Shown: piece by piece, positions 16,773 to 52,298 of the stretch | Layout: each line of letters opens with the position of its first letter | Position numbering within the stretch: position 1 is the stretch's first letter | NCBI GenBank assembly: GCA_030066905.1 | Contig: JASJAR010000001.1 | Coordinates: 124,001-188,000 of the forward strand | Length of the DNA stretch: 64,000 nt | Direction: 5' to 3' | Source of the DNA: Paracoccaceae bacterium | Lineage (GTDB): Bacteria > Pseudomonadota > Alphaproteobacteria > Rhodobacterales > Rhodobacteraceae | Translations under genes and position numbers: made by a program | The notes under the pieces: generated by a model | What the model was told of the DNA's origin: nothing | The model's input: the letters and a program-made list of their open reading frames with translations, nothing else | The model's database searches: none

Positions 16773-18155
16773 TCAGGGCGCTGGAGCCCGTCCCGCGACC
16801 GGGGTACCGGCGACGTAGACCGACGCGATGTTCGCCTCCCCCGTCCCGTAAAGCAGCCGTTCGAGCCGGCGCTCGGGCGGGTCGTGAGCGCCCTCCTCCC
16901 AGAAGGTGAGGCCGCCGCCGGGGGCGGTCGTGTCGATGAAAAGCGCGTCGAAACTCTGCCCGGGCGCGAACCGGCCCACCGGCAGGCCCAGAACGTCCGC
17001 CCCGCCGGCAGTGGCGAGCCAGAACGCGGTGGCCGCATCGATCCGCGCCGGCCTGTGCGTGCTGCGCGCCTCCGGCGCGAGGTCGGGATCGATGCCGCTT
17101 TCGAGAAGCCGCGAGGTCTGGATCGACAGCCGCGCGGTGTCCCAGAGCGAGGCGGAGGGCCCGCCGGCAATGTCGGTGCCGAGCCCGACGCCGAGGCCGG
17201 CGTCCAGCGCCCGCCGCAGCGGAAAGGCGGCACCGCCGAAATAGGCGTTCGAGGCCGGGCAATGGGCAACGCCGGTCCCGCAGCGGATCATCGTCGCCAT
17301 GTCGCTCGGCGACAGGTAGCAGCCATGGGCCATGACCGAGCCCGGGCGCATCAGACCGAAGCCTGCAAGGGTTTCGGCATCGCTGCGGCCGAACCGTTCG
17401 AGCACGAAGGCATGTTCCCAGTCGCCCTCGGAGACGTGGCTCGTCACCGGGGTCGCAGTTTCTGCGGCCAGCGCGCCGAGCCCTGCGAGCAGACCGTCGG
17501 TACAGGCCGGCACGAAACGCGGCGCGATCATCGGGCGGACCCGGGCATCGGCATTGCCGGGATGCCCGCGGATATGCCCGATCACCTCCCGGGTGCCCTC
17601 GACCGCCGCCTCGGCGGAGGGGTCGCGGTAGTAATCGGGGCAGGTCTCGGGGTGGTCCATCGCCACCCGCCCCACAAAGGCCCGCTGGCCCTTCTCGAGG
17701 CAGACATCGGCGAGCACCTTCGTCGCCGCGTCGTGCAGCGTGGCGAAATAGACCGCCGTCGTCGTACCCCAGGCCAGGAGCCGGTCGATGAGCGCTTCGT
17801 AGACCCGCCGGGCGAAGGCGGTGTCCGCATAGCGCGCTTCGAGGGGGAAGGTGTAGGTGTCGAGCCAGTCCTCGAGCGGCAGGTCGAGCGCGGTGCCGAG
17901 TTGCGGGTATTGCGGCGCATGGACATGGAGGTCCACCAGCCCCGGCAGGAGCACCGTTCCGGGCGGCGGCGATCTGAGCCGCTCGCTGGCCCTGGCTTCG
18001 GCATGCGCGGGCGTTCCCGGCAGATGCAGGGCCGCAATCTCTCCGGCGGCGTCGAGGTCGATGACGACATCCGTGAGCGCTTCGACCCGCCCCCGCTCGG
18101 GCGTGTGGAACGCCTCGACGCAAAGCGATTGCCCTCTGAGGTCGCCAAGGCTCAT
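16773..18155 (-). CDS. guaD: Guanine deaminase (amidohydrolase superfamily)
   Basis: A 460-residue metal-dependent amidohydrolase that would convert guanine to xanthine and ammonia. The TIM barrel carries LVDLHVHAPQYP (His77 and His79 as metal ligands), HVSEGDWEH, AHGCYLS and the terminal metal ligand in GTDIAGG. PQ after HxH, and GTD followed by GG, are typical of bacterial and animal guanine deaminases. The start ATG 18155 overlaps the stop of the upstream Rieske-less oxygenase by four bases, so the two form one operon. This links that oxygenase to purine chemistry. A different but related aminated heterocycle remains possible as substrate. Confidence 0.75.
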   Translation of the reverse strand: MSLGDLRGQSLCVEAFHTPERGRVEALTDVVIDLDAAGEIAALHLPGTPAHAEARASERLRSPPPGTVLLPGLVDLHVHAPQYPQLGTALDLPLEDWLDTYTFPLEARYADTAFARRVYEALIDRLLAWGTTTAVYFATLHDAATKVLADVCLEKGQRAFVGRVAMDHPETCPDYYRDPSAEAAVEGTREVIGHIRGHPGNADARVRPMIAPRFVPACTDGLLAGLGALAAETATPVTSHVSEGDWEHAFVLERFGRSDAETLAGFGLMRPGSVMAHGCYLSPSDMATMIRCGTGVAHCPASNAYFGGAAFPLRRALDAGLGVGLGTDIAGGPSASLWDTARLSIQTSRLLESGIDPDLAPEARSTHRPARIDAATAFWLATAGGADVLGLPVGRFAPGQSFDALFIDTTAPGGGLTFWEEGAHDPPERRLERLLYGTGEANIASVYVAGTPVAGRAPAP

Positions 18156-19006
18156 CCCGCCTCCGCCGCGCCGAGGCTCGTGCCGTAGGTGTAGCCGCAT
18201 TCCTTCAGCCAGCGGCGATAGGCGACCGATGTGGCGTCGGCCCGGGTCGGGATCTCCGAGCGCGGTTCGAGGGGCAGAAGCTTCGGCCGCTGGTTTTCGA
18301 TGATGATGCGGTCCTGAAGGAAGATGAGCTGCTGAAAGGCGATGAGATCGGTCTGGTCGGAGGCCTCGTCGATGAGGAACATCACCGGGTGGGCCCGGCT
18401 GATCTCCGGGGTGACCGGCTGGACGAACAGCGCGATGACGTCCCAGCGGTCTTCCGCATTCGGGCAGGTCTTCAGAAGCACCGCCGCCAAGGGGGCGACG
18501 ACGCGGTAGATATACCGGGTGTCGATGGCCCCCTCCGCGCTCAGGGCGGCTTTCGGCTGGACGAAGCGGCAATCGGTGGCCCAGACCTCGTTTACCTCGC
18601 GCCGGATTTCGCAGGCGAACGGCAGGACCTCGGTATCGGGTTCCGCCCCCAGCACACCGGTATGGACGAAAGGGAAATGGGCCATGTCGAGAAAGTTCTC
18701 AATCACCCTCGGCCCGCTGGTGCGCACCGTGACACCGCCGCAAAGGACCAGCCGGCGATCCGCTTCGCCGGCCTCCGGGATATCGGGCACCGGCTCGCCG
18801 GGTGTACCGGGATTGGCCCAGAGACAGCCATAGCGAACGCATGTCGCCACCTCGGCTGGCCCGTTGCGCACCGCAACCGCTTCGCCGTCGCGGTAGAGAT
18901 CGAGCGTCTCCCCAAGAAGGCCGGTCCGGCTCGTGCCGGGCGGGATCTCGCCCAGCGCGCCGAGGCAATACCATTGGTCCCGCACGGCGGGCTCGGCTGC
19001 TGTCAT
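18152..19006 (-). CDS. Rieske-type oxygenase catalytic subunit lacking its Rieske domain (copy A)
   Basis: A 284-residue homologue of VanA/Ndm-type non-heme iron oxygenases. The catalytic domain is intact: ENFLDMAHFPFVH supplies Asp107, His110 and His115, and LQDRIIIENQRP supplies Asp232 as likely third ligand. The [2Fe-2S] motif CxH...CxxH is absent. Its flanks remain (LGETLDLYRDGEAVAVRNG before, VRYGCLWANPG after) and are joined directly, as if the cluster loops had been excised. Such a protein needs electrons from a Rieske cluster on another chain; a free Rieske protein is encoded divergently at 19525. By analogy with NdmC of caffeine degraders it may N-demethylate a methylated purine. I chose ATG 19006 because family homology begins there; the in-frame extension to 19117 has none. 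Confidence 0.85.
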   Translation of the reverse strand: MTAAEPAVRDQWYCLGALGEIPPGTSRTGLLGETLDLYRDGEAVAVRNGPAEVATCVRYGCLWANPGTPGEPVPDIPEAGEADRRLVLCGGVTVRTSGPRVIENFLDMAHFPFVHTGVLGAEPDTEVLPFACEIRREVNEVWATDCRFVQPKAALSAEGAIDTRYIYRVVAPLAAVLLKTCPNAEDRWDVIALFVQPVTPEISRAHPVMFLIDEASDQTDLIAFQQLIFLQDRIIIENQRPKLLPLEPRSEIPTRADATSVAYRRWLKECGYTYGTSLGAAEAG

Positions 19007-19276
19007 GGTCTGGGCATCTTTCCTCGTTCGACCCTCCGGGCAGCGTCGCGGGATGACGCGTGCATGCCAAGGCGCAGGTGCCGCGGCCGCAAGGTCGACC
19101 CCTTGGCGCACGACCATCGGTTATGAGGCCGCACAATAAAGTGGCGCGCTTGCATGCGCCTTGGGCAGCCGCCGAGCGAACCGGGGCGCCGGCCTGCGCC
19201 ACGGCCCCCATCGGCTTGAGGCCGGAATTCGCGGGGGCCAGCGTGGGTGCATCCCACCGCCCGAAGCGGAGCCCTC
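19007..19276. promoter_or_regulatory. Divergent control region of the split-oxygenase operons, with inverted repeats
   Basis: This 270-base gap separates two divergent operons, so both promoters should lie here. CCAAGGCGCA at 19067-19076 is repeated in exact inverse as TGCGCCTTGG at 19155-19164. A third related copy, CCTTGGCGCA, lies at 19101-19110. Both outer copies adjoin TGCATG. This layout would suit a dimeric regulator bridging the two promoters. An AT-rich ACAATAAA at 19133-19140 could be part of a -10 element. No regulator gene is present nearby. Confidence 0.45.
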
Positions 19277-19525
19277 ATGCGGAGCATCGTCAGTTTGGAA
19301 TTCGTCGGCCGCTTCGACCCTCAGAGCTTCGCCGCCTTCGCCGCCCACCGCGCCGAGCGCCTGTCGCTCGACCATCTGGTGGTCTCGGGCGCGCAGGAGC
19401 GAACGGTGATCCGCCTCGAAGGCCCCGACCCGCTGATCGACGCTTTCGAGATGGCGCTCAGCCTCGGCCCCGCCGATTGCCTGGTGCGCGATGTCAGGCG
19501 CCTCGAAAACGGCGCGCAGAGCTGA
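19277..19525 (+). CDS. Small acylphosphatase-like protein, first gene of the oxygenase operon
   Basis: An 82-residue protein. Its alternating pattern resembles the ferredoxin-like fold of acylphosphatases: LEFVGRFDPQSF, then DHLVVSG, TVIRLEGP, and FEMALSLGPADCLVRDV near the end. The catalytic Arg and Asn of true acylphosphatases are not obvious, so I would not assign that activity. It starts at ATG 19277 after GGAG and overlaps the Rieske gene by TGATG, which makes co-translation likely. Its constant position at the head of this operon suggests an assembly, chaperone or sensing role for the oxygenase complex. That is inference only. Confidence 0.55.
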   Translation: MRSIVSLEFVGRFDPQSFAAFAAHRAERLSLDHLVVSGAQERTVIRLEGPDPLIDAFEMALSLGPADCLVRDVRRLENGAQS

Positions 19526-20193
19526 TGCCCCCACCGCCGGTCGCCTGGACGCCCGTGGCCCTCGCCGCAGACCTCCAACCCGGTGCCGCCGCCGGCGTGG
19601 TCGTCGACGGCGCGGAGGTCGCGATCTGGCGCGACACGGCAGGTACCCCCCATGCCTGGGAAGACCGTTGCCCCCATCGCGGCATGAAGCTCAGCTTCGG
19701 CTTCGTGCGCGGCGAGCGGCTGGCCTGCCTCTACCACGGCTGGGAATACGACGGCGGCGGGCAATGCCGCTACATCCCCGCCCATCCCGACCTCGACGTG
19801 CCGGCCTCGATCTGCGTCAATCGCTACAGCGCCGCCGACGCCGCAGGGCTCCTTTGGGTGGCCTCCGGGACCGGGAGCGGCGACCTCCCCGACCCCGGGG
19901 ACCCCCTGAGCCCGCTCCGCAGCCTCTTCATCGACGCCCCCCTCGGCGAGGTTCTGAACCGGCTTGCCGCGGACGGCCTGCCGGGGCTGGGGCCGGTCGT
20001 TGAATCGGCCGAAGACGGGCCTCTGTTGAACTTCGACCAGGCGGGGCACCGGTTTGTGGTCGGACGCCACCCCACCGGCCCGTCGGGCACCGCGCTCCAT
20101 ATCCTCCTCAAGGGCGAGGTGAGCGCCGAGGCGCGGGCGGCGATGATCCCCGCAACGGCCGAACTGCGGCGGCTGGCGGAGGCGGGCCGATGA
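19525..20193 (+). CDS. Stand-alone Rieske [2Fe-2S] protein
   Basis: A 222-residue soluble protein. Cys49-x-His51 and Cys68-x-x-His71, sixteen residues apart, form a complete Rieske [2Fe-2S] site (CPHRG and CLYHGW). The domain looks like the N-terminal half of a VanA-type oxygenase, not a short ferredoxin: it continues through RYIPAHPD and GLLWVASG. The last 90 residues have no iron-ligand motif and no recognised family. It probably supplies electrons to the two Rieske-less subunits in this cluster, restoring in trans the domain they lost. The start overlaps the small upstream gene by one base and the end overlaps the GST-like gene by four. No reductase is encoded nearby. Confidence 0.85.
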   Translation: MPPPPVAWTPVALAADLQPGAAAGVVVDGAEVAIWRDTAGTPHAWEDRCPHRGMKLSFGFVRGERLACLYHGWEYDGGGQCRYIPAHPDLDVPASICVNRYSAADAAGLLWVASGTGSGDLPDPGDPLSPLRSLFIDAPLGEVLNRLAADGLPGLGPVVESAEDGPLLNFDQAGHRFVVGRHPTGPSGTALHILLKGEVSAEARAAMIPATAELRRLAEAGR

Positions 20194-20822
20194 CCCGACC
20201 GGTCCTTTGGAACTACGATCTCGACGATGCCTCCTACACCGTCCGGCTCATGGCCTCGCTTGCGGGCGTGGACGTCGATCTGCGGGCGGTCGATGTCTAC
20301 CCGGGCGCCGAACACCACTCGCCGGGCTATCTCGCCAGGCATCCGCTGGGCCGGGTCCCGCTTCTCGAGGACGGTGTGGTGCAGCTCCGGCAGGTGCCGG
20401 CGATGCTCACCCATCTTGCGCGAACCGGTCCGCGCGGGACGGGCTTTCTGCCGGCCGACCCGGTCGGGACGGCAGCGGTCGAGGACTGGCTCGCCTTCGC
20501 CTTTCGCGACTGGCTGGCGCTGTCGGCCGCGCGCAGCGCTTCGATCTTCGGCGACGGTGTCGATCTCGACCCGCTCAGAGCGGCCGCGATAGCCGCGCTG
20601 CGCGTTGCCGAGGACCGTCTTGTCGCCCAGTCGCTCCTCGGCTCGGGTTTCGTCGCGGGATCGGCGGCGAGTGTGGCCGACATCGCGCTCTTTCCCGGCT
20701 TCGCCCTCAGCCGGGACAGCAACATCGACCACGACGCCTTCCCCGCCTTGCGCAACTGGGCCCGCCGGATCCGCGCGCTTGAGGGGTTCGTGACGATGCC
20801 CGGCATCCCGGATTACCATTGA
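20190..20822 (+). CDS. GST-fold protein, probable structural subunit (NdmE-like)
   Basis: A 210-residue glutathione S-transferase-fold protein with an N-terminal thioredoxin-like half (to about residue 80) and an all-helical C-terminal half. RVPLLEDG keeps the cis-proline loop, but the next helix reads LRQVPAML where active enzymes have Glu/Gln-Ser to hold glutathione; the Ser is Val. This points to a structural role rather than catalysis. In caffeine-degrading Pseudomonas, the GST-like NdmE tethers the Rieske-less oxygenase NdmC to its electron donor. The position here, between a free Rieske protein and Rieske-less subunits, fits that model well. It overlaps both neighbours. Confidence 0.75.
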   Translation: MTRPVLWNYDLDDASYTVRLMASLAGVDVDLRAVDVYPGAEHHSPGYLARHPLGRVPLLEDGVVQLRQVPAMLTHLARTGPRGTGFLPADPVGTAAVEDWLAFAFRDWLALSAARSASIFGDGVDLDPLRAAAIAALRVAEDRLVAQSLLGSGFVAGSAASVADIALFPGFALSRDSNIDHDAFPALRNWARRIRALEGFVTMPGIPDYH

Positions 20823-22357
20823 TGGCCGGGATCGGGGACACTCTCGCTGCGACCTACGACTTCATCGTCGTCGGCTCAGGCTCCGGCGGGTCGGTGGTGA
20901 CCCGCCGGCTCGTCGAGGCGGGCCACGAGGTGCTGCTGGTGGAAGCCGGCGGCGACGGGCGCGGGGTGCCGGTGCTCGAAGACCCCCGCCGCTGGACCGA
21001 GATCGCCGGGACCGAATGGGATTGGGGGCTGTCCTACGCGCCCACTCCCGAGGTCGGTGGCCGCGCGATCGCCATCCCGCGCGGCCGCGTGCTGGGGGGC
21101 TCCGGCACGACCAACGCTATGATGTGGTATCGCGGTCATCCGTCGGATTACGACCGCTGGGTCGAACTCGGCTGCTCCGGCTGGAGCTGGGCGGACTGCC
21201 TGACGGCCTTCCGGCGCGCCGAAACCTGGGCCGGGGGCCCGAGCGACCTGCGGGGTGGTGAGGGACCCCTCCGCGTCGCGCCGCCGGCCGACCCGCATCC
21301 GCTTGCGCTGGCGATGATCGAGGCGTCCGGACAGGCGGGCCATGCGGTGCTCGACGACCCGAACGGGGCGTCCAACGAGGGCGCGGCCCCGGCGAACTTC
21401 AACATCGACGCGGGACGCCGCTTCGGCCCCGTGGAGGGCCATCTGTCGGGCATCCTCGATGCGGAGAACCTCACCGTGGCGCTGTCGACTGCGGCCCTCG
21501 CCCTCCTCTGGCAGGGCGACCGCGCGGCCGGGGTGAGATTGTGCCGGGACGGCGAGCGGCACGAGGCCCGGGCCAGCCGGGGTGTGGTGCTTGCCGCCGG
21601 GGCGTTCGAGACCCCCCGGCTCCTGATCGGGTCGGGCATCGGGCCGGAGCCGACCCTGCGCGCCCTGGGGGTGTCGGTGGTCGCGCCGCGCGCCGATGTC
21701 GGCGACAATCTCCAGGACCATCCGCTGGTCCGCGGCGTGAACTTCGCCGCGTCGCGCGCGCTGCCGCCGCCGCGGGACAATGGCGGCGGCGCGATCCTCA
21801 ACTGGCGCTCGGAGCCCACCCGCGACAAGCCCGACCTCCACGCCTTTCCCGTCGCGGCGCGAAGCGCGACGCCGGCCCTGGCCGAACGCCTGTCGAAGGC
21901 GGATTTCGCGATCTGTGTCGGGCTCATGGGCTCGAAAAGCCGCGGCAGGCTGACGCTCACCGGTGCCACGGCGGATGGGCCGCTGCACATCGACCCGGGG
22001 CTGCTGTCGCACCCCGACGACCGAAAAGCGCTGCGCCTCGGGATCGAGGCGATCAAGGACCTTGCACGCCAACCCGCGCTCGCGGCACTGACCGAACGCC
22101 GTCTCTGCCCTACCGAGGAGGACGACCTCGACGCCTTCCTCGCGCTGGCTTGCGGGACCTTCTTTCACCCCTGCGGCACCGCGCGCATGGGCTCCGACGA
22201 CGAGGCTGTGACCGACCCTCGTCTGAGGGTCAATGGCGCCGAGAGCCTCTGGGTCGCCGATGCCTCGGTGATCCCGGACATCCCAAGCTGCAACACCCAT
22301 TCGGTCGTCACCATGATCGGCGAGCGGGCGGCTGAGTTCATTCTGGAGGACGCATGA
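20822..22357 (+). CDS. GMC family FAD-dependent oxidoreductase
   Basis: A 511-residue glucose-methanol-choline oxidoreductase. FIVVGSGSGGSV near the N-terminus binds the FAD diphosphate, and GRVLGGSGTTNAMMW is the GMC signature 1. ETPRLLIGSGIG is signature 2, and the C-terminal FHPCGTARMG and CNTHSVVTMIGE regions carry the active-site histidines. It would oxidise an alcohol to an aldehyde, possibly feeding the aldehyde dehydrogenase at the end of this operon. The ATG at 20822 overlaps the upstream stop by one base (TGATG); a TTG at 20819 is also possible. The alcohol substrate is unknown. Confidence 0.85.
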   Translation: MAGIGDTLAATYDFIVVGSGSGGSVVTRRLVEAGHEVLLVEAGGDGRGVPVLEDPRRWTEIAGTEWDWGLSYAPTPEVGGRAIAIPRGRVLGGSGTTNAMMWYRGHPSDYDRWVELGCSGWSWADCLTAFRRAETWAGGPSDLRGGEGPLRVAPPADPHPLALAMIEASGQAGHAVLDDPNGASNEGAAPANFNIDAGRRFGPVEGHLSGILDAENLTVALSTAALALLWQGDRAAGVRLCRDGERHEARASRGVVLAAGAFETPRLLIGSGIGPEPTLRALGVSVVAPRADVGDNLQDHPLVRGVNFAASRALPPPRDNGGGAILNWRSEPTRDKPDLHAFPVAARSATPALAERLSKADFAICVGLMGSKSRGRLTLTGATADGPLHIDPGLLSHPDDRKALRLGIEAIKDLARQPALAALTERRLCPTEEDDLDAFLALACGTFFHPCGTARMGSDDEAVTDPRLRVNGAESLWVADASVIPDIPSCNTHSVVTMIGERAAEFILEDA

Positions 22358-23742
22358 AAGAGCCCGACACGATCCTCTCCGGGGCCGCGCTCGTTACGAT
22401 GGACCAGGCGCTTCGGGTGCTCCCCGAGGGCGGGGTCGCGCTCGCCGGCGGCGAGATCCTGGCGGTGGGTCCGCGCGAGGAGCTCGCCACAGCCCACCCG
22501 GGCGCAGAGACGCGCCACATGCCCGATTGCGTGCTGATGCCCGGGCTCATCAACGCCCATGCCCATTCGGGGTTTCTGCGCGGCACGGCCGAGCACCTGC
22601 CGGTCTGGGACTGGCTCACGATCCATATCAATCCGATGCACCGGATGCTCAGGCCCGAAGAGGCCGAAGCCGCAAGCTGGCTCGCCTATGCCGAATCGCT
22701 CCTCGGCGGGACGACCACGATCCTCGACATGTGGCGCTTCATGGACCGTTCGGCGCGCTGTGCCGAGACGCTTGGCAACCGGCTTGTCGCGGTGCCCTAT
22801 GTCGGCGCCCATCCCGATTACGACTATTTCGACACGCTTGAGATGAACGAGGCCCTGATCGGAGAGTGGCACGGGGGCGCGAACGGCCGGGTCACGGTCT
22901 GGGTCGGGCTCGAACACCTGTTCTATGCCGACGAGGCCGGCCAGGCCCGGGCGCTGGCCATGGCCAAGGCCCACGACACCGGGCTTCACACCCATTGCTC
23001 GGAAGCCGAGATCGAGGTCGCCGAGTTCGAGCGGCGCTACGGCAAGCGCCCGGTCCATGCCCTGGGCGAGATCGGCCTGCTCGACGCGCCGCGGTTTCTC
23101 ATCGCCCATGCGGTCTGGCTGGATCGAGGCGAGATCGCCAGGCTCGCCGACACCGGCGGCGCGGTCGCCCATAACCCGGTGTCGAACATGAAGCTTGCCT
23201 CGGGCATCGCTCCGGTGGAGGACATGCTGGCCGCCGGGCTCGCGGTGGGTCTCGGCACCGACGGGGAGAAGGAAAACAACAACTTCGACATGTTCGAGGA
23301 AATCAAGGGGGCCTCGCTTCTGGGCAAGCTGCGCAACCGCGACGCGGCGGCGATGGACAGTTGGGAGGCGCTGAAGCTCGCCACCATCGGCGGCGCCCGG
23401 GCGCTGGGGCTCGACGACCGGATCGGCTCCATCGAACCGGGCAAGCGCGCCGATATCATCGCCGTGCGGTGCGACACGCCCCGGATGACACCGTTCTTTG
23501 CCGACGGCGAGTGGATGAACCTGCACCACAACCTCGCCCATGCCGTGCGCGGCTCGGACGTGGCCATGACCATGGTCGACGGGCAGGTCGTGGTGGAAGA
23601 CGGCGCGCTTCTGACCGGGCGCCTTTCGGACATCATCGCCGAGGTCCGCGCCCTTGTCCCCGGCCATTTCGCCCGCCGGGCGGCCTGGCTGGCAGAGAAC
23701 CAGTCCACGCAATGGACCGACCCGGAGCGCCCTGCCCCATGA
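22354..23742 (+). CDS. ATZ/TRZ-type amidohydrolase (deaminase)
   Basis: A 462-residue amidohydrolase of the group that includes 5-methylthioadenosine/S-adenosylhomocysteine deaminase and triazine hydrolases. Metal and catalytic residues are present: NAHAHSGF, HTHCSEAE, IAHAVWL and LGTDGEKENNN. These enzymes hydrolyse amino or halogen groups from aromatic N-heterocycles. The GTDGEKENN loop and the FLRG after HxH differ from the guanine deaminase at 16773 and from the 8-oxoguanine deaminase-like proteins downstream, so it likely handles another ring. It overlaps its upstream and downstream genes by four bases each, immediately before a Rieske-less oxygenase. Confidence 0.8.
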   Translation: MKEPDTILSGAALVTMDQALRVLPEGGVALAGGEILAVGPREELATAHPGAETRHMPDCVLMPGLINAHAHSGFLRGTAEHLPVWDWLTIHINPMHRMLRPEEAEAASWLAYAESLLGGTTTILDMWRFMDRSARCAETLGNRLVAVPYVGAHPDYDYFDTLEMNEALIGEWHGGANGRVTVWVGLEHLFYADEAGQARALAMAKAHDTGLHTHCSEAEIEVAEFERRYGKRPVHALGEIGLLDAPRFLIAHAVWLDRGEIARLADTGGAVAHNPVSNMKLASGIAPVEDMLAAGLAVGLGTDGEKENNNFDMFEEIKGASLLGKLRNRDAAAMDSWEALKLATIGGARALGLDDRIGSIEPGKRADIIAVRCDTPRMTPFFADGEWMNLHHNLAHAVRGSDVAMTMVDGQVVVEDGALLTGRLSDIIAEVRALVPGHFARRAAWLAENQSTQWTDPERPAP

Positions 23743-24593
23743 CCCGGACCGACGACCCCGTCGCCCTGAACGAATGGTATGCGGTCGCCAGCCTCGACGA
23801 GCCGGGGGCCGCGCCGCAAACGACCCGCCTTCTCGGCGAGGACATCGAGATCGGCCCCGGTGGCGGCGTGAGGAGCCTCGCCACCGGCGAAGCGCTCCGG
23901 ACCTGCGAGAAATGGGGACTGCTCTTTGCCAGTTTCGGCAGGCCGCCCCGCGCGCTCTTCGACATCGCCGAAGCCCGCGAAACCGACCGCCGCTTCGTGC
24001 CCTGCGGCTGGATCACGCTCAGGGCCTCAGGGCTCCGTGTGGTCGAGAATTTCCTCGACATGGCGCATTTCCCGTTCATCCACACGGGCATTCTCGGCAC
24101 CGAGCCGCATACGGAAGTTCCCCAATATGCCAGCGAGATACGCCGCGACGTCGATGAAGTCTGGGCGACGAACTGCACGTTCTTCCAGTCCCAGATTGCC
24201 GCGACCGAGACCGGCGGCGATTTCGTGCATCTGACCTACCGGGTGCCCGCGCCCTTCGTCGTGATGCTCTACCGCGTCTGCCCGTCGGCCCCCGACCGGC
24301 TCGACGCCATCGCGCTCTTTCTGCAACCGATGGAAGAGACGCTCTGCCGGGCGATTCCGCTGATGTGGCTGGTGGATACCTCGTCGACCCACGCCGAGCT
24401 TCTGCGGTTCGAGCAGGTGATCTTCATGCAGGACCGGATCGTGGTGGAAAACCAGCGCCCGCTGCGCCTGCCGCTGGAGCCGCGCCACGAAATCCCGACC
24501 CGGGCCGACGGCTCGTCGGTGGCCTATCGGCGGTGGCTGAAGGAAAAGGGGCTGCGGTTCGGAACGACGGCGGGCGCGGAGGCGGCGGCATGA
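23739..24593 (+). CDS. Rieske-type oxygenase catalytic subunit lacking its Rieske domain (copy B)
   Basis: A 284-residue paralogue of the protein at 18152-19006, exactly the same length. It aligns without gaps from residue 91 to the end, with 111 of 194 positions identical by my hand count. Asp107, His110, His115 and Asp232 are conserved, as is ENQRP. The [2Fe-2S] ligands are missing at the same place: LLGEDIEIGPGGGVRSL runs into CEKWGLLFASFG. The shared excision means the loss happened before the duplication. It lies in the same operon as the free Rieske and GST-like proteins, so it is the most direct candidate partner. Divergence from copy A suggests a different methyl position or substrate. 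Confidence 0.85.
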   Translation: MTRTDDPVALNEWYAVASLDEPGAAPQTTRLLGEDIEIGPGGGVRSLATGEALRTCEKWGLLFASFGRPPRALFDIAEARETDRRFVPCGWITLRASGLRVVENFLDMAHFPFIHTGILGTEPHTEVPQYASEIRRDVDEVWATNCTFFQSQIAATETGGDFVHLTYRVPAPFVVMLYRVCPSAPDRLDAIALFLQPMEETLCRAIPLMWLVDTSSTHAELLRFEQVIFMQDRIVVENQRPLRLPLEPRHEIPTRADGSSVAYRRWLKEKGLRFGTTAGAEAAA

Positions 24594-27500
24594 AGGTCCT
24601 TCGTCCCGGCACGCTCGGCGAGGCACGGGCGCTTATCGCCCGGCCGGGGCATGTTGCCGTGGGCGGCGGGACGGTGCTCCAGCTCGGCTGGGCGTCAGGT
24701 GCGACGCCGCCGGAGGCGCTCGTCGATCTGTCGCGGCTCGGCCTCGGCGACATCGCGGCATCGGCGGACGGTGGCCTGACGATCGGCGCAGCCGCCACCC
24801 TTGCCGACATCGAGAACGACCCGCAACTCTCAGACACCGCGCCGCTTCTGGCCCGCGCCGTTCGCGACATCGGCGCGCCCGGCATCCGGCGGCTCGCAAC
24901 GCTCGGGGGGCAGATCGGCTGGGGGGCGGGCTGTCTTTTGCCGGCGCTGCTGGCGCTCGACGCCAGGGTCTTTGCGGCCGGCTCGACCGACCCTGTCGAC
25001 ATGCCGCTGGCCGACTGGCTCGCGGCTCCGGACGGCCTCGTTCTGTCCGTCACCGTCCCCCCGCAGGCCCCGGATGCGACCTGGACCTGGCGCAAGATCG
25101 GGCTCCGTGCGGCGTTCACGCCCTCGGTGATCGCGGTTGCGGGGCTGCGGAGCGAGGCAAGCGCCGCGCTGGGCGCCGGCGGCGGGCCGGTGCCGCCGCG
25201 GCGCCTCCCGGTCTCCGAAGCGGCGGTAGCCGAGGGGCCGGAGGCTTTGCGTCTGGCCCTCGAAGCCGAGATCGAGGCGCCCGATTGCATCCACCGCACC
25301 GGGCGGTATCGGGCCCGCGTTGCCGCCGCGGCGCTGACCCGCGGTCTCTTCGGCACGCCCCGGGCGCCGGCGGCGGAAACCAGCCTTAAAGTGCCGGCCG
25401 CCGAACCGCCGCCCGAGGGCCTTCGCAGCCTCGAAGGCGGGCCGGGCGGCCCCGAATGGCACCCCCGCCCGGACGGGCGGGCGAAGATCACCGGCCAGGC
25501 GGGCTACCTCACCGATGCCCGCGCGCCTGACATGCTAGTTGGGCGCATCCTCCGCGCCGGGCGGCCCCATGCCCGCATCCTTTCCCTCGACACTTCCCGC
25601 GCCGAGACCCTCCCGGGGGTCGCGGCCGTGGTCACCCACGCGGACGTACCGGGCCTCAACGCCTTCGGGATCATGTGGCAGGACCAGCCCGCCCTTTGCC
25701 ACGACGTCATCCGCTACGAGGGCGACCCGGTGGCCGCCGTGGCCGCTGTCGACGAGGCCACCGCCGAGACCGCGCTTCAGGCCATCGAGGTGGTCTACGA
25801 GGACCTGCCTGTCATCGCGAGCCCGGCGGAGGCGCTGGCCGAGGATGCCACGCGGCTTCATCAGGGCGGCAATCTCGCCGCCGGTTTCGACCTCGAACGG
25901 GGCGACGTCGAGGCGGGGTTCGGGGCCGCTGCGCATATCGTCGAGGCGACCTACGTCACCCCCCGCCAGATGCATGTCTTCCTCGAAACCGAGGGCGGCT
26001 GGTGCGCGCCGGGCGACGACGGCACGCTCACCGTCGCCGTGGGCGGCCAGCATGGCGGGCGCGACCGGGAGCAGCTCGCGCGCATCCTCGACATGCCCGA
26101 AGAGCGCCTCCATGTCATCACGAGCCCTACCGGCGGCGGGTTCGGCGGCAAGGACGAACTCACCGTCCAACCCGCCCTCGCCCTTCTTGCGCTGAAGGCG
26201 GGCCGGCCGGTCCGGCTCCATCTCTCCCGCGCCGAATCGGTGCTGGCAGGCGTGAAGCGCAACCCGATGACGATCCGCATGAAGACCGGCTGCGACGCGG
26301 ACGGCCGCCTCCTTGCCCAGGAGGTCGAGCTTGTGGCCGATTGCGGGGCCTATGCCTCGCTCTCGCCGGCGGTCGCCGAAACCGCCCTCGAACATGCTTT
26401 GGGCCCCTATCTCGCCCCCGCGCTCAAAACCTCGGGGCGCCTCGCCTACACCAATAACGGGGTCGGCGGCGCGTTCCGGGGCTTCGGCGCCAACCAGATG
26501 ACCTTCGCCATCGAATGCCAGTTGGACCGGCTGGCTGCGCTGACCGGGCTCGACCCCGTCGAAATCCGGCGGCGCAATCTCCGCCGGCCGGGGATGCCGG
26601 GGCTGATGGGGCACAAGGTGGCCGGCTCCGAACGGCTCGCCGAGATGCTGGCGGCGGCGGCGGCGAGCCCGCTCTGGAGCGCCCGGGCCGGTCCGGACGG
26701 CGATCCCGAAGGCACCGGCATGGCGCTCAACTTCCAGGGCAACGGGCTGGGGAGCCTGCCGCAGGACGACGGCGAGGGCGAACTCCGGCTGGCCGCCGAC
26801 GGCGCCATCGAAATCGCCAGCGGGCTCGACGAGATGGGTCAGGGCCTGGCGACCGCCTTGCAGGCGGTGGGCGCGGCGCGGCTCGGCTGCGCGCGCAGCG
26901 ACATCAGGCCCGTTTACGGCGATACGCAGGCGGCGCCCGATTCCGGTTCCACCTCGGCCTCGCGGGGGACCTTCGCCGCCTGGTCCATCGCCCGGGGCGC
27001 GGCCCCCGGTTTCGCCGAGAAGGTGCTCGCGCTGGCCGCCGACCTCACCGGCGTCGAGGCCACCTCCCTGCGGCTCGTCCCCGGCGGTGTCGCGGTCGCC
27101 GGCACCAACAGCGATGCGCCGATTGCGCGCTTTGCCGACCTGGCCCGCCATGCGGGAACCGCCTTGCCGCGCCAGAAGACCGCCTTTGCGTTCCCCAAGA
27201 CCGACTATACCGACGGCAACGCCCGCTTCATCCATTGCTACGGCGCCACCCTCGCCCGGGTCGCGGTCGACCCGGTGACCGGCGAGGTCCGCCTCCGCGC
27301 GCTCGAGATGCACACCGCCGCTGGCCCGGTGATCGACCTCGCCGCCTATCTCGGCCAGATCGAGGGCGGGCTCATTCAGGGCCTCGGCCTGACACTGACG
27401 GAAGACACGCTCTTCCGGGAGGGCCGGGTCCTGACGACAAATCTCGACGCCTATATGGTACCCTCTATCAGGGACGTCGCCCCGTCGCTCCGCGTCACCG

Positions 27501-27682
27501 CGCTGGAAGACCTCGACGCGGACGACCCCTGGGGCCCCCGCGGCGTGGGCGAGTTGGGCATCGGCGCCGTCACTCCCGCCATCGCCAACGCCGTCGCCGC
27601 AGCCATCGGAGGCTGGCCGGTGGCGGCCCCCTTCTCGCCCGAGGCGATCCTCGAGCTGGCCACCGGGAGTGCTGCGGCGTGA
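24590..27682 (+). CDS. Mo-hydroxylase: fused FAD (CoxM-like) and molybdopterin (CoxL-like) subunit
   Basis: A 1030-residue fusion. Residues 1 to about 275 form the FAD-binding subunit of xanthine-dehydrogenase-family enzymes (VAVGGGTVLQLG, ATLGGQIG). From about 295 onward is the molybdenum-cofactor subunit, with GRAKITGQAGYLTD, GGGFGGKDE, AFRGFGANQM and GVGELGIGAVTPAI, the last containing the catalytic Glu. Together with the small iron-sulphur protein that follows, it would hydroxylate a purine or related heterocycle at carbon. FAD-Mo fusion with a separate [2Fe-2S] chain is unusual; FeS-FAD fusion or three separate chains are the common forms. A trimeric caffeine dehydrogenase is known from other caffeine degraders. 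ATG 24590 overlaps the oxygenase stop by four bases. Confidence 0.85.
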   Translation: MKVLRPGTLGEARALIARPGHVAVGGGTVLQLGWASGATPPEALVDLSRLGLGDIAASADGGLTIGAAATLADIENDPQLSDTAPLLARAVRDIGAPGIRRLATLGGQIGWGAGCLLPALLALDARVFAAGSTDPVDMPLADWLAAPDGLVLSVTVPPQAPDATWTWRKIGLRAAFTPSVIAVAGLRSEASAALGAGGGPVPPRRLPVSEAAVAEGPEALRLALEAEIEAPDCIHRTGRYRARVAAAALTRGLFGTPRAPAAETSLKVPAAEPPPEGLRSLEGGPGGPEWHPRPDGRAKITGQAGYLTDARAPDMLVGRILRAGRPHARILSLDTSRAETLPGVAAVVTHADVPGLNAFGIMWQDQPALCHDVIRYEGDPVAAVAAVDEATAETALQAIEVVYEDLPVIASPAEALAEDATRLHQGGNLAAGFDLERGDVEAGFGAAAHIVEATYVTPRQMHVFLETEGGWCAPGDDGTLTVAVGGQHGGRDREQLARILDMPEERLHVITSPTGGGFGGKDELTVQPALALLALKAGRPVRLHLSRAESVLAGVKRNPMTIRMKTGCDADGRLLAQEVELVADCGAYASLSPAVAETALEHALGPYLAPALKTSGRLAYTNNGVGGAFRGFGANQMTFAIECQLDRLAALTGLDPVEIRRRNLRRPGMPGLMGHKVAGSERLAEMLAAAAASPLWSARAGPDGDPEGTGMALNFQGNGLGSLPQDDGEGELRLAADGAIEIASGLDEMGQGLATALQAVGAARLGCARSDIRPVYGDTQAAPDSGSTSASRGTFAAWSIARGAAPGFAEKVLALAADLTGVEATSLRLVPGGVAVAGTNSDAPIARFADLARHAGTALPRQKTAFAFPKTDYTDGNARFIHCYGATLARVAVDPVTGEVRLRALEMHTAAGPVIDLAAYLGQIEGGLIQGLGLTLTEDTLFREGRVLTTNLDAYMVPSIRDVAPSLRVTALEDLDADDPWGPRGVGELGIGAVTPAIANAVAAAIGGWPVAAPFSPEAILELATGSAAA

Positions 27683-28161
27683 AGGACCTCGACACGCTTT
27701 CGTTTACCCTCAACGGCGAGGACATCCGCATGGATGCCTCGCCCGAGACACCGCTGGTGCGGGTCCTGCGCGACGGGCTCGAACAGACCGGAACCAAGCT
27801 CGGCTGCGCCATCGGGCGCTGCGGGGCCTGCACGGTGCTCGTCGACGGCAAGGCGCTCAACGCGTGCCTTGTGATGCTCTGGCAGGTCGAAGGACGGTCT
27901 GTCCTGACCATCGAGGGGCTCCGCGACGACCCGGCCTACCGGCCCCTGATCGACGCGCTCGACGCGGCAAATGCCTTCCAGTGCGGCTATTGCGCCCCCG
28001 GCGTGACGCTGGCGCTTGCGGGGCTCCTGAAGGCCAACCCCGATCCCGCCGAGGACGAAATCGTGACGGCACTCGAAGGCCATATCTGCCGCTGCACGGG
28101 GTATCACTCGATCCTGCGCGGCGCGCGCCGTGCGGCCCTAGACATGAAAGGGCCCCGATGA
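27679..28161 (+). CDS. [2Fe-2S] iron-sulphur subunit of the Mo-hydroxylase (CoxS-like)
   Basis: A 160-residue protein with both iron-sulphur clusters of the xanthine oxidase family. The N-terminal plant-type cluster is bound by GCAIGRCGACTV and a following Cys in NACL. The C-terminal cluster is bound by FQCGYCAPG and ICRCTGYHSI. It passes electrons from the molybdenum centre to FAD. The start is GTG 27679, overlapping the fused subunit's stop by four bases; its own stop overlaps the aldehyde dehydrogenase start. Length matches CoxS-type subunits. No XdhC-type maturation factor is seen in the window. Confidence 0.9.
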   Translation: MKDLDTLSFTLNGEDIRMDASPETPLVRVLRDGLEQTGTKLGCAIGRCGACTVLVDGKALNACLVMLWQVEGRSVLTIEGLRDDPAYRPLIDALDAANAFQCGYCAPGVTLALAGLLKANPDPAEDEIVTALEGHICRCTGYHSILRGARRAALDMKGPR

Positions 28162-30198: not shown

Positions 30199-31194
30199 CT
30201 ATTTCGAGAAGTTCGCCCCGAGCCGCATCTGGATGTATTCGTGCCCCGTCATCGGCTCGTACTTGCCTTCGGGCCCCGCGATCACCGCGTCCATGTTGGC
30301 CTGGCAGAAGAACGCCAGCGAATAGCGGGGGCCGAGATACTCGTCGGGCTTCGGCATCCGCACCCGGTGGAGGTTCGACAGAAGCTTGTCGTCGGACCAG
30401 CGCATCAGCATGTCGCCGATATTGCAGGTGATGACGCCGGGCAACGGCGGGATGTCGGTCCAGGCGATGGCGCGGCCCTCGGTGTCCTTGCCGGGGCAGA
30501 GCTGGAGCCCGCCCTGGCCCGACTTCTGGTGCAGAAGCGTCAGGCAGTCGAAATCGGTATGGGCGCCAGCGCGCCAGAACCTGAAATCCTCGGGCTTGGC
30601 ACCCTCCATCCCGAGGTAATGGATCAGCCGCAGGGTCGACTGGTACTGATCGGTCATCGGGTCGTGGGCAGCGGTGAAGAAATCGGGCGGAAAGCCCAGT
30701 TTCCTGCCGAAACAGGCGAGCACCTTCATCCCCAGAGCCCAGTTGGCGCGCTCGAAGGCGAGCATCGCGGCCTTGAAGCCCGGCAGTTCCTCGCCGGTGG
30801 GCCAGAGCTTGCCCATCCGCGGCAGGGTGACCTGATAGCTCTCCTTCTGGTCGGCGGTGCCGGTGGAGGGGCGCACCTGCTCTTTGTATTCCCAGCCGGA
30901 ATTCGTCCCCGGCGCGAGCGGGTATTTCGCCTTCGTCTCAGTCGGCAGGGCGAAAAAGGCCTCGGCCAGCGCGAAGGCCTCGTCGACCTGGGCCTGGGGG
31001 ATGTCGTGGTTGATGAGCTGGAAGAACCCGATGGTCGTCGCCGCCTCCCAGAGGTCGTCGGCGATGGTGTCGAACCGGGCCGCGTAGTCGCTCATGTCGA
31101 TCTGCGGGATGTCGCGGTCGACCTCCACGCCGACCCCGCCGATGCGGGTTTCCTTCTGCAACTCGGCAAGGCCGTACTCGGTTTTTGCGGTCAT
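30199..31194 (-). CDS. Isopenicillin N synthase-family Fe(II)/2-oxoglutarate oxygenase (copy 1)
   Basis: A 331-residue non-heme iron oxygenase with a double-stranded beta-helix core. The iron triad is His212, Asp214 (AHTDFD) and His276 (NLHRV). Arg290-x-Ser292 (RYS) binds the 2-oxoglutarate carboxylate in the family. The N-terminal domain has GFFQLINHDI, as in IPNS-like proteins. It follows an amidohydrolase in an operon with an ABC importer, so a role in hydroxylating or demethylating an imported N-heterocycle is plausible; 2-oxoglutarate-dependent xanthine hydroxylase XanA is a precedent for the chemistry, though from another subfamily. I chose ATG 31194 over ATG 31206 because GGAG lies seven bases upstream. 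Confidence 0.8.
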   Translation of the reverse strand: MTAKTEYGLAELQKETRIGGVGVEVDRDIPQIDMSDYAARFDTIADDLWEAATTIGFFQLINHDIPQAQVDEAFALAEAFFALPTETKAKYPLAPGTNSGWEYKEQVRPSTGTADQKESYQVTLPRMGKLWPTGEELPGFKAAMLAFERANWALGMKVLACFGRKLGFPPDFFTAAHDPMTDQYQSTLRLIHYLGMEGAKPEDFRFWRAGAHTDFDCLTLLHQKSGQGGLQLCPGKDTEGRAIAWTDIPPLPGVITCNIGDMLMRWSDDKLLSNLHRVRMPKPDEYLGPRYSLAFFCQANMDAVIAGPEGKYEPMTGHEYIQMRLGANFSK

Positions 31195-31307
31195 GTGTGT
31201 CTCCATGTCTGACGGCCGGAACGATCCGGCCGGTGGCGGTCTATGGGAGCAATGACCCGCGTCGCCTCGGGGGGCGGCGCTGACTGCTTCTACTCCGTTC
31301 TTGGCGT

Positions 31308-35704: not shown

Positions 35705-36211
35705 ATGACCGACATGGATGAGAAAGAGGCGGCGTCGGACCGCGACATCGAGCTTTTGCGCCGCACGATCGAGCTTGCGCGCACCGCCCGGGCGCGCGGC
35801 GACCACCCGTTCGGTGCGCTTCTGGCCGATGCGGACGGTGCGGTCCTGCTCGAAGCGATGAACACCTGCGGTACCGAGGGTGACCGGACGGGCCATGCCG
35901 AGCGCAACCTGATGACGGCGGCGTCGATGGCGTACGACGCCGGTTTCCTTGCAAGCTGCACCATGTACACCTCCGCCGAGCCCTGCGCGATGTGCGCAGG
36001 CTCGGTCTATTGGGCCGGGGTCGGCCGGGTGGTCCACGGGATGAGCGAGCGGGCGCTGAAGGACCTGATCGGACCGGACCCCGAAAACCTCACGATGGAC
36101 CTGCCCTGCGCAGAGGTCTTCGCCGCCGGCCAGCGCAAGGTCGATGTCGTCGGCCCGCTGCTGGCCGACGAATCGGCCAGGGTGCATGACGGGTTCTGGA
36201 CGGGCCTGTGA
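35705..36211 (+). CDS. CDA-fold nucleobase deaminase (guanine deaminase-like)
   Basis: A 168-residue zinc deaminase. GHAERN supplies the zinc His and catalytic Glu, and SAEPCAMC supplies two zinc Cys. YWAGVGRVVHGMSERAL resembles the bacterial GuaD and tRNA-adenosine deaminase branch; the length fits a free-base deaminase rather than a tRNA enzyme. It heads a plus-strand operon with an 8-oxoguanine deaminase-type amidohydrolase, an Fe(II) oxygenase and a hydrolase. ATG 35705 is preferred to upstream ATGs in low-similarity sequence. The substrate is probably an amino-purine or a related base. Confidence 0.75.
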   Translation: MTDMDEKEAASDRDIELLRRTIELARTARARGDHPFGALLADADGAVLLEAMNTCGTEGDRTGHAERNLMTAASMAYDAGFLASCTMYTSAEPCAMCAGSVYWAGVGRVVHGMSERALKDLIGPDPENLTMDLPCAEVFAAGQRKVDVVGPLLADESARVHDGFWTGL

Positions 36212-37548
36212 GGCGCTGGCTGAAGTCCCCGCTGGCGATCCTCGCCGATGGCGCCGAAGGCGGTCTCGTCGTCGACGGCGATACCATTGCCGAATGCGTT
36301 CCCGTCGGCGGGGCGCCGTCCGAGCCCGTGGACGAAACGGTCGACATGTCCGCCCATGTCGTCATCCCCGGCCTCATCAACACCCACCACCATTTCTACC
36401 AGACCCTCACCCGCGCTTTCCCGCCGGCGCTCAATCGCGAGCTCTTCCCCTGGCTGACAGCGCTCTATCCGGTCTGGGCGCGGATGACGCCGGAGGACCT
36501 CGCCCTGGGCATGCGCGCCGCCCTCGCGGAGCTTCTCCTGTCGGGCTGCACGACCACGACCGACCACCATTACGTATTCCCCGAAGGCTGCGAGGACGGC
36601 ATCGACATCGAGGTGGCCGAGGCCCGGGCGCTTGGGCTTCGGGGGGTCTTCACCCGGGGGTCGATGAACCTTTCGGTGAAGGACGGCGGCCTGCCGCCCG
36701 ACAGCGTGGTGCAGGACGAGGACACGATCCTTGCCGACAGCGAGCGGCTGCTCTCGGCCTATCACGAGACCGGCCCCGGCGCGCGCATCCAGATCGCCCT
36801 GGCGCCCTGTTCGCCGTTCTCCGTCACGCGATCGCTGATGACGGCCTCGGCCGAGCTTGCCCGCAAGCACGGCGCGCGGCTGCACACCCATCTCGCCGAG
36901 ACCCATGACGAGGAAGACTGGTGCGTCGAGACGTTCGAGATGCGCCCGCTCGACTATCTCGACGACACCGGCTGGCTCGCGGACGATGTCTGGCTCGCAC
37001 ATGGCATCCATTTCAGCGACGGGGACATCGCCCGGCTCGCCAAGGCCGGGACGGCGGTGACCCATTGCCCCTGCTCGAACATGATCATCCATTCGGGTCA
37101 TTGCCGGGTCTGCGCGCTCGAAGAGGCAGGGGTTACCGTGGGGCTCGGGGTTGACGGGTCCGCCGCGCAGGACGCCTCGAACCTGATGCAGGAGGTGCGC
37201 CAGGCGTTCCTCCTCCAGCGGCATCACTACGGCGTCTCCGCGGTGACCCATCTCGACGCGATCCGCTGGGCGACGGAAGGCTCGGCGGCGTGCATCGGGC
37301 GGCCCGATCTTGGCCGGCTCGCGCCGGGCATGGCCGCCGATCTCGCCTGTTTCACCCTCGAGGAGATGCGCTTTTCGGGCCATGGCGACCCGATCGCCGC
37401 GCTTGTCAATTGCGGCGCCCACCGGGCCGACCGGGTCATGGTGGCCGGCGAGTGGCGGGTCTGGAACGGTGAGATTTGCGGCTTCGACATTGCCGCCTTG
37501 CGGCGCGACCACCAGGCGGCGGCGGACCGGCTTCAGGCCGGCCCCTGA
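36208..37548 (+). CDS. 8-oxoguanine deaminase-like amidohydrolase
   Basis: A 446-residue enzyme closely matching the 8-oxoguanine deaminase family, which converts 8-oxoguanine to urate. Diagnostic features are NTHHHFYQTLTRA, CTTTTDHHYVFP, APCSPFSVT, HTHLAETHDEEDW and GVDGSAAQDASNL. Compared with the paralogue at 31308, it keeps more of the family's specific residues. GTG 36208 overlaps the upstream deaminase stop by four bases. Together the two would deaminate guanine and an oxidised guanine, consistent with purine salvage or catabolism. Hydroxydechloroatrazine-type activity is a known alternative in this family. Confidence 0.8.
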   Translation: MRRWLKSPLAILADGAEGGLVVDGDTIAECVPVGGAPSEPVDETVDMSAHVVIPGLINTHHHFYQTLTRAFPPALNRELFPWLTALYPVWARMTPEDLALGMRAALAELLLSGCTTTTDHHYVFPEGCEDGIDIEVAEARALGLRGVFTRGSMNLSVKDGGLPPDSVVQDEDTILADSERLLSAYHETGPGARIQIALAPCSPFSVTRSLMTASAELARKHGARLHTHLAETHDEEDWCVETFEMRPLDYLDDTGWLADDVWLAHGIHFSDGDIARLAKAGTAVTHCPCSNMIIHSGHCRVCALEEAGVTVGLGVDGSAAQDASNLMQEVRQAFLLQRHHYGVSAVTHLDAIRWATEGSAACIGRPDLGRLAPGMAADLACFTLEEMRFSGHGDPIAALVNCGAHRADRVMVAGEWRVWNGEICGFDIAALRRDHQAAADRLQAGP

Positions 37549-37573: not shown

Positions 37574-38530
37574 ATGCCAACAAGCGACACGCCCCTTCCC
37601 ATCGTCGATATCGCCGGGCTCGCCTCGGACGATCCGGCCGCGAGAGCCGAGGTCGGCCGGGCGATCCGGGCGGCCTGCGAGGACATGGGCTTTATGTATG
37701 TCGTCGGCCACGGCATCGACGAGGGGCTCCGCGCAGACGTCCTTTCCGAGGCCGCCGCGTTCTTCGCCCTGCCGCTTGAAGAGAAGATGGCCACCGACAT
37801 GAAGAAGAGCCCCTGCAATCGCGGCTACGAAGAGATGGGCGGGCAGACGCTCGAGGCCGACGCGCCCCCCGATTTGAAGGAGAGCTTCCTGATGGGGGCC
37901 GAGCTTGCCCCGGACGACCCGAGGGTGCTGGCCGGCAAGTTCAACCAGGGGCCCAACCAATGGCCGGCCGGGCGGCCCGGTTTCGAGGCTACGATGATGC
38001 GCTATCATGGGGAGATGAACGCGCTCGGGGCGCTCATGATGCGGGGGGTGGCCTTGTCGCTCGATCTGCCAGAGGACCACTTCGCGCCGTTCGACACCGA
38101 CCCCGTGAGCATCCTCCGGCTCATCCATTACCCGCCGCAACCGCCGAACCCGCGCCCCGGGGAGAAGGGCTGCGGCGCCCATACCGACTGGGGGGCGCTG
38201 ACGCTTTTGATGCAGGACGATACCGGCGGGCTCCAGGTCAGGGCCGAGGACGGGAACTGGATCGACGCGCCCCACGTTCCCGGCAGCTTCGTCGTCAACC
38301 TCGGCGACATGATGGCCCGCTGGACGAACGACCGCTATCGCTCCACCGAACACCGGGTCATCAACGTCTCGGGGCGCGACCGCTACTCGGTGCCGTTTTT
38401 CTACGAAGGCAATGCCGACGAACCGGTCGTCTGCCTGCCGGGCTGTTCGAGCGAGGCCGACCCGCCGCGCTATGCGCCCACCACGGTCGAGGGGCATCTG
38501 AAGGAGATGTATGCCAGGACCTATGCCTGA
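37574..38530 (+). CDS. Isopenicillin N synthase-family Fe(II)/2-oxoglutarate oxygenase (copy 2)
   Basis: A 318-residue relative of the protein at 30199. The iron triad is His203, Asp205 (AHTDWG) and His260 (STEHRV), with Arg270-x-Ser272 for 2-oxoglutarate. The N-terminal IVDIAGL and GFMYVVGHGI are standard for the family. A good ribosome-binding site (AAGGAG) precedes ATG 37574. The two copies differ in length and in the active-site flanks, so they probably act on different molecules. Both sit next to an 8-oxoguanine deaminase-type amidohydrolase, a pairing that suggests successive steps on the same kind of ring. Confidence 0.8.
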   Translation: MPTSDTPLPIVDIAGLASDDPAARAEVGRAIRAACEDMGFMYVVGHGIDEGLRADVLSEAAAFFALPLEEKMATDMKKSPCNRGYEEMGGQTLEADAPPDLKESFLMGAELAPDDPRVLAGKFNQGPNQWPAGRPGFEATMMRYHGEMNALGALMMRGVALSLDLPEDHFAPFDTDPVSILRLIHYPPQPPNPRPGEKGCGAHTDWGALTLLMQDDTGGLQVRAEDGNWIDAPHVPGSFVVNLGDMMARWTNDRYRSTEHRVINVSGRDRYSVPFFYEGNADEPVVCLPGCSSEADPPRYAPTTVEGHLKEMYARTYA

Positions 38531-52270: not shown

Positions 52271-52298
52271 CGGACACGACAGGAAAGGAGGCCGCGCC

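Follow-up and report, generated by a model that had tools for sequence, protein, structure and literature searches.

In ordinary Rieske oxygenases the iron of a subunit receives its electrons from the cluster of the adjacent subunit, over about 12 Å (PMC12445004). That such an oxygenase can be divided is in principle already known from two systems: NdmC/NdmD/NdmE (NdmCDE) of Pseudomonas putida CBB5, which removes the N7 methyl group of 7-methylxanthine and was termed very unique in a 2015 review (PMC4408171), and the chlorophyllide a oxygenase of Micromonas pusilla, which occurs as two polypeptide chains (PMC9615114). A preliminary description of the locus analysed here had named NdmCDE as the only precedent, a statement that falls with the Micromonas enzyme. 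The locus lies in a 64,000-nucleotide stretch of a Paracoccaceae bacterium (GenBank assembly GCA_030066905.1, contig JASJAR010000001.1, positions 124,001 to 188,000), called the window below and numbered from its first letter. It encodes two catalytic subunits without a Rieske site (ROX1 and ROX2), a free-standing Rieske protein (RSK), and a protein of the glutathione S-transferase (GST) fold. We hold it likely, at roughly 85%, that a single Rieske oxygenase is here made of two different chains, ROX and RSK, with the GST-like protein probably a structural partner and one RSK/GST set serving two ROX. The four genes are:

18152-19006, minus strand: ROX1, Rieske-less catalytic subunit, 284 amino acids (iron motif DMAHFPFVH; VanA_C match)
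19525-20193, plus strand: RSK, Rieske protein, 222 amino acids (PF00355 Rieske, E 6.6e-23, residues 8-90)
20190-20822, plus strand: GST-like protein, 210 amino acids (PF02798, E 3e-5; 4-base overlap with RSK)
23739-24593, plus strand: ROX2, Rieske-less catalytic subunit, 284 amino acids (iron motif DMAHFPFIH; VanA_C match)

The two ROX proteins are 51% identical to each other. In Pfam they match VanA_C and, weakly, KshA_C, with nothing else listed at E up to 1; neither has a CxH...CxxH Rieske site, and both have the D-x-x-H-x4-H iron motif in the forms given above. Coordinates, lengths and motifs of the two subunits are as the preliminary description had them, and so are the position and length of RSK. 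Relatives of ROX (n = 106) and of RSK (n = 82) were collected by profiles made from such proteins. The Rieske motif occurs in none of the 106 ROX relatives and the iron motif in all of them, with D107, H110, H115 and D232 kept throughout; D232 is presumably the third iron ligand, by analogy with dicamba monooxygenase. A scan of named genomes confirmed at least 544 ROX relatives, of which the best 80 loci were used for locus counts; all 81 ROX open reading frames (ORFs) of these 80 loci have the iron motif and lack the Rieske motif. In a joint alignment of seven undivided relatives, 14 ROX and 17 RSK, a single block is absent from ROX (residues 46-96 in undivided-relative numbering, the exact borders varying with the alignment). 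It holds both cluster-ligand loops and its flanks are kept, just as had been proposed from the window alone: the loops are excised and the flanking strands left. The predicted model of ROX2 (mean predicted local distance difference test, pLDDT, 90.7) superposes with residues 2-277 on residues 1-334 of SxtT (Z 32.8, 1.8 Å, 270 of 284 residues aligned), and by sequence the closest solved structures to ROX2 are SxtDIOX and SxtT. The source genome (94.7% complete) has exactly two VanA_C matches, namely ROX1 and ROX2.

RSK consists of a Rieske domain (about residues 8-123) and a tail (about residues 124-222; window 19894-20190). The Rieske motif is retained in 82 of 82 RSK relatives and the iron motif is present in none, in a set that was filtered by length and score and from which the Cys-less protein of locus L059 was excluded. 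Among the 80 loci, 64 RSK ORFs scored above 60 bits and 61 were retained, those dropped being one cut at the locus edge and two single-chain oxygenases; from other loci the set omits fusions, a broken copy in L054, full-length oxygenases, and the L059 protein, which misses one cluster Cys. In the AlphaFold2 (AF2) model of RSK (mean pLDDT 90.9) residues 3-222 superpose on SxtT 5-288 (Z 19.6, 3.0 Å, 218 of 222 residues aligned), and the tail of about 100 residues, which has no iron motif, is predicted to adopt the fold of an oxygenase catalytic domain in reduced form. In the joint alignment RSK has kept its Rieske domain and some stretches of the catalytic domain, most of the remainder being gone. 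As modelled, both chains fit SxtT over nearly the whole length, with a Rieske domain followed by a helix-grip catalytic domain, and the closest solved structures to RSK by sequence are the same pair as for ROX2. On models and alignment together, ROX2 and RSK both look like full-length oxygenase subunits with complementary losses. The preliminary description was right in giving RSK a complete Rieske site; in place of the freed domain it envisaged, the modelled protein looks like a decayed oxygenase subunit. An RSK-like protein without the Cys of the CxxH loop (GVYH) is encoded at L059:5814-6347, on plasmid pKNA08 of Komagataeibacter nataicola, where its neighbours are a divergent ROX, a GST gene and a VanB-type reductase encoded separately; this chain may have a structural role without a cluster.

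It is improbable that RSK is instead an ordinary Rieske-type ferredoxin with an unrelated tail, shuttling freely between a reductase and ROX or some other enzyme. RSK is indeed a separate polypeptide, and a Rieske ferredoxin is among its PDB sequence matches (2qpz, E 2.5e-6); its closest matches, however, are oxygenase subunits (SxtT, 1e-24; NdmA, 2e-17), the modelled tail superposes on an oxygenase catalytic domain, and the same tail is found in the NdmD-like RSK-reductase fusions. In the Rieske tree RSK and these fusions stand on one side of a branch and full-length oxygenases on the other (support 99/97), and ROX lacks a cluster at which shuttled electrons could arrive. The description of a small, single-domain Rieske ferredoxin does not fit a protein with a modelled tail of about 100 residues. 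A bare Rieske ferredoxin was also considered and was set aside in view of the tail and the closest relatives.

The relatives show the two halves in several states of division. Undivided single-chain Rieske oxygenases (open frames of 329-400 amino acids) were found at L210-L217 and are possible undivided cousins. Those of L210-L216 have both motifs and score 180-223 bits against the ROX profile and 100-137 bits against the RSK profile; no GST-profile match of at least 30 bits was found within their 16-kb stretches. A second form has free RSK with ROX and GST, the arrangement of the window; at L222 and in both modules of the kombucha Komagataeibacter plasmid (L059) a separate VanB-type reductase is present in addition. 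At L220 (7104-8417, minus strand) RSK is fused to a 2Fe-2S ferredoxin domain of plant type, with neither an FMN nor an NAD domain, and in make-up stands between free RSK and NdmD; at L051, L052, L061-L063, L219 and L221 it is joined to a complete reductase, which is the NdmD form. These relatives with a fused reductase, a fused ferredoxin or an adjacent reductase hint at the electron route into RSK.

All ROX, those of the NdmCDE-type loci included, lie on one side of a branch, with support of 100/98 in a first tree and 100/99 in a second. The first included 16 of 19 full-length oxygenases (left out were a second copy of the L053 protein and the proteins of L029 and L164); eight of its rows are absent from the second, namely the divergent L059 ROX and seven full-length oxygenases that are distant or on long branches. 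In the second tree the ROX with a fused partner lie on one side of a branch at 90/84, which is not a starred support. A single clade of the ROX with free RSK was not rejected in either of two approximately unbiased (AU) tests (p 0.157 and 0.306). The fused set stands beside, not inside, the free RSK set in the Rieske tree.

In a sample of 295 genomes of the source's family, 33 have ROX2 matches at E <=1e-3, of which 22 are strong (E <=3.3e-30) and 11 weak (E 2.6e-12 or worse). RSK, searched by profile with the top 10 candidates per genome scored, was found alongside ROX in 21 of the 22 strong genomes (Fisher p 7e-30, a value that ignores the relatedness of the genomes); ROX or RSK is present in 23 of the 295 genomes and both in 21. 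The RSK profile was matched to its end in 20 family genomes, and in two more RSK is fused. RSK and GST are in the neighbourhood of ROX in 20 of the 21 strong genomes other than the source's own, the exception being G033; among these 20 neighbourhoods, G241 and G280 have an RSK-reductase fusion, and in G123 frame changes interrupt the genes. In a sample of 398 genomes from across the phylum, 22 match the ROX profile (E <=1e-40), seven of them with single-chain oxygenases and 15 with Rieske-less subunits, and RSK, free or fused, is present in all 15 of the Rieske-less genomes. For the best 80 of the at least 544 loci, RSK lies in the locus itself in 62, on the same contig in four more, and elsewhere in the genome in 14. 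Co-occurrence in related genomes, which the preliminary description had set as a check, is borne out by these family, phylum and named-genome counts. Judged by record titles, most of the 80 loci belong to Rhizobiales or Rhodobacteraceae; Acetobacteraceae and Granulosicoccaceae are also represented, as is Rhodococcus with two records. Among plasmids, 304 records match at E <=1e-5, mostly of Rhizobium and Sinorhizobium, a count that includes full-length oxygenases. The ROX2-type subunits of the Rhodococcus records (L088, L090) share 61-62% identity with that of the window, which suggests either contamination or a transfer between phyla.

The same counts bear on a second alternative, by which ROX would be inactive or purely structural paralogues, or would be reduced directly by a ferredoxin without RSK. 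ROX does lack the cluster that known subunits of such enzymes use, and pseudo-subunits occur in many enzyme families; we nevertheless hold this to be very improbable in view of the four residues D107, H110, H115 and D232, intact in every ROX relative, of the co-occurrence of ROX with RSK, and of the source genome itself, which has no other VanA_C match for ROX to support (other oxygenase families were not searched). That a sequencing or assembly error split a normal gene can be dismissed, since nothing was found in its favour, no CxH/CxxH pair appears in any of the 106 ROX relatives (the frameshift check proposed earlier), and Rieske-less ROX with RSK in the same genome recurs in the best 80 of the at least 544 loci and on named plasmids; conservation thus rules out a frameshift or assembly artefact.

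The source genome has two ROX and one RSK match (E <=1e-20, with 10 of 55 candidates scored), and G046 likewise has two ROX and one RSK. On all five contigs of the named-genome scan with two separate ROX loci retained, a single set of small gene, RSK and GST lies between them (the small gene is described below); a sixth, short contig (L121) carries a pair of ROX with one GST and a single weak RSK. Two tandem ROX lie upstream of one RSK-reductase fusion in S. meliloti (L063) and at L221. The two kinds of ROX keep different company, counted on the same strand and within 3.5 kb. Subunits of ROX2 type (at least 58% identity to ROX2) have the amidohydrolase of window position 22354 nearby in 25 of 28 cases and a GMC gene in 27 of 28; those of ROX1 type have a guanine-deaminase-like gene in 18 of 34. 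A shared RSK set with distinct deaminase partners agrees with a single electron-transfer chain that supplies two catalytic specificities, and one RSK seems to serve two different iron partners.

The other genes around the four are:

16773-18155, minus strand: guanine-deaminase-like amidohydrolase (TIGR02967, 358.8 bits, just below the cut-off of 375.4)
19277-19525, plus strand: small protein of an acylphosphatase-like family, 82 amino acids (stop overlaps the RSK start, TGATG)
20819-22357, plus strand: GMC oxidoreductase, in the same operon as RSK
22354-23742, plus strand: TRZ/ATZ-type amidohydrolase (stop overlaps the ROX2 start by 4 bases)
24590-27682, plus strand: xanthine-dehydrogenase-type FAD and molybdopterin subunit, downstream of ROX2
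27679-28161, plus strand: small 2Fe-2S subunit of a xanthine-dehydrogenase-type enzyme (Fer2 match, window 27703-27852)
36208-37548, plus strand: 8-oxoguanine deaminase (NF006055, 650 bits against a cut-off of 532)

On the plus strand the small gene, RSK, GST, the GMC gene, the amidohydrolase, ROX2 and the xanthine dehydrogenase (XDH) gene form a chain with consecutive overlaps of 1 or 4 bases. ROX1 and the guanine-deaminase-like gene run opposite to this operon, the ROX1 stop and the deaminase start overlapping by 4 bases. The preliminary inventory had ROX1, ROX2, RSK and the GST-fold protein beside it, which the PF02798 match confirms; it missed the 82-residue acylphosphatase-like gene. The GST-like protein resembles NdmE in fold and gene company, and a GST-profile match is present in 72 of the 80 named-genome loci. 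The small-gene family is matched in 50 of the 80; PF00708 is matched by five of 13 family members, the window's own not among them, and the family profile matches 1v3z at E 6.8e-5. The 82-residue protein apparently lacks what we take to be the usual acylphosphatase active-site loop.

The purine-type catabolic context proposed earlier holds in the neighbour-family matches. Relatives of 8-oxoguanine deaminase, mostly distant, lie near many ROX/RSK modules; further in the cluster there are more amidohydrolases, along with a binding protein that weakly matches the BMP family, and the gene cluster probably breaks down purine-like nitrogen compounds. At 49986-54202 the window has in succession an amidohydrolase, a creatininase that exceeds its NCBIfam cut-off, and two proteins of the agmatinase family, which also exceed theirs; this row suggests that a pathway for creatinine or guanidine nitrogen adjoins the purine cluster. 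The same cluster encodes two 2OG-Fe(II) oxygenases (DIOX_N/2OG-FeII_Oxy type), at 30199-31224 (minus strand) and 37595-38530 (plus strand); P. putida and Klebsiella plasmids likewise have genes annotated as 2OG-Fe(II) oxygenases in their NdmCDE-type loci.

We propose that both chains descend from full-length oxygenase subunits: in ROX the part of the Rieske domain that binds the cluster would have been lost, in RSK much of the catalytic domain along with the iron site. Each chain would keep the shell of its lost half, which makes a mixed ring plausible, with RSK probably occupying the position of the neighbouring subunit in the usual trimer-type contact. Electrons would run from a 2Fe-2S ferredoxin or reductase to RSK and then across the interface, via the invariant Asp of D-x-x-H-x4-H, to the ROX iron. 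A three-membered ring of two chain types would allow no more than one RSK-to-ROX contact in the productive direction. The GST-like protein is a probable structural partner, as postulated for NdmE. ROX1 and ROX2, with their different deaminase partners, would most likely remove N-alkyl (methyl) groups oxidatively from purine-type heterocycles before deamination, and the published NdmCDE activity uses analogous parts (PMC4408171). Our best guess at the reaction, at about even odds, is that purine-type or guanidine-type heterocycles are N-dealkylated and then deaminated.

Several points weigh against the two-chain reading or parts of it. G033 has ROX without RSK (in a genome 74% complete), and G117 has RSK, GST and the small gene without ROX (at a contig start, in a genome 84% complete). 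The filtering of the RSK set and the exclusion of its Cys-less protein, mentioned above, belong here too. Sequence comparison only suggests that the RSK tail derives from a catalytic domain (hhalign gives E 0.0011 and a probability of 20%, weak on its own), and the case leans on the AF2 model. One RSK for two subunits, which the preliminary description thought probable, gains weight from the five contigs that share one set and is not universal: the two modules of L059 each have their own RSK-like gene, and G304 has two RSK matches. The source genome has three NAD_binding_1 matches, none of which reads as a VanB-type reductase; we take them to be NqrF, a flavodoxin-reductase-type fusion and an Fpr-type ferredoxin reductase. 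The donor of RSK is a guess among 11 Fer2 matches, some within larger enzymes and some that may be free ferredoxins. The substrate is read from the neighbours only, and oxidation of a side chain or ring would be an equally good reading of the GMC, aldehyde dehydrogenase and XDH genes. Finally, the comparison with NdmCDE drew on the NdmCDE-type loci L061-L063, as stand-ins for the NdmC and other sequences of CBB5.

Beyond the enzyme itself, we think it fairly likely that duplicated subunits decayed in complementary ways, one into a chain with the iron alone, the other into a chain with the cluster and the vestige of a catalytic domain, the latter a shared plug-in donor for several iron chains of differing specificity. 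No earlier account of Rieske-less subunits paired with an independent Rieske chain was found in searches of an open-access library, subscription literature being largely outside their scope; neither were a vestigial catalytic domain, shared use by two iron chains, or the graded series found there. Since electrons cross between neighbouring subunits, metal sites on separate chains let single sites be changed, titrated or swapped, and the stoichiometry and electron-gating questions of Rieske oxygenases become directly testable in a split system. One cluster protein for two catalytic subunits also suggests a natural mix-and-match N-dealkylation or C-H oxidation of purine-like heterocycles.

Among known systems, SxtT and GxtA (SxtDIOX) are the closest solved structures to both halves, by sequence and fold, and differ in being single chains with both metal sites and in acting on another substrate. 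The undivided relatives of L210-L216 likewise have both metal sites within one chain. NdmA/NdmB, an alpha3alpha'3 heterohexamer (PMC12445004), is similar in bringing unlike oxygenase subunits into one assembly, but every subunit there has both metal sites. Full-length oxygenases with both motifs lie near the modules of L059 and L062. The Micromonas chlorophyllide a oxygenase shares the division of a single oxygenase over two chains, each of which reportedly keeps one metal site, with both chains needed (Kunugi's work of 2013). It is, in contrast, a eukaryotic chlorophyll enzyme, whereas ROX matches VanA_C and KshA_C; its own C-terminal family gave no match for ROX1 or ROX2 (Pfam, E up to 1), and we know of no GST-like partner for it.

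NdmCDE is like the window's system in its Rieske-less iron subunit, its GST-like partner and a Rieske domain supplied by another protein, and the ROX homologues of the P. putida and Klebsiella plasmids (L061, L062) and of S. meliloti (L063) fall inside the ROX clade. It is unlike it in that the Rieske part of NdmD is fused to a reductase, whereas RSK is a free 222-residue protein; the window, moreover, has no adjacent reductase, one set with two catalytic subunits, and the extra acylphosphatase-like gene. The fusion of a Rieske domain to an FMN/NADH/2Fe-2S reductase is found only in some relatives. The preliminary description had called the architecture distinct from NdmCDE; this is right for the independent Rieske chain and not for the family, to which the NdmCDE-type loci belong. 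NdmCDE thereby gains a wider family of undivided, split and fused members and, if our reading is correct, would be the branch in which the cluster chain became joined to its reductase, the RSK-ferredoxin fusion being another stage.

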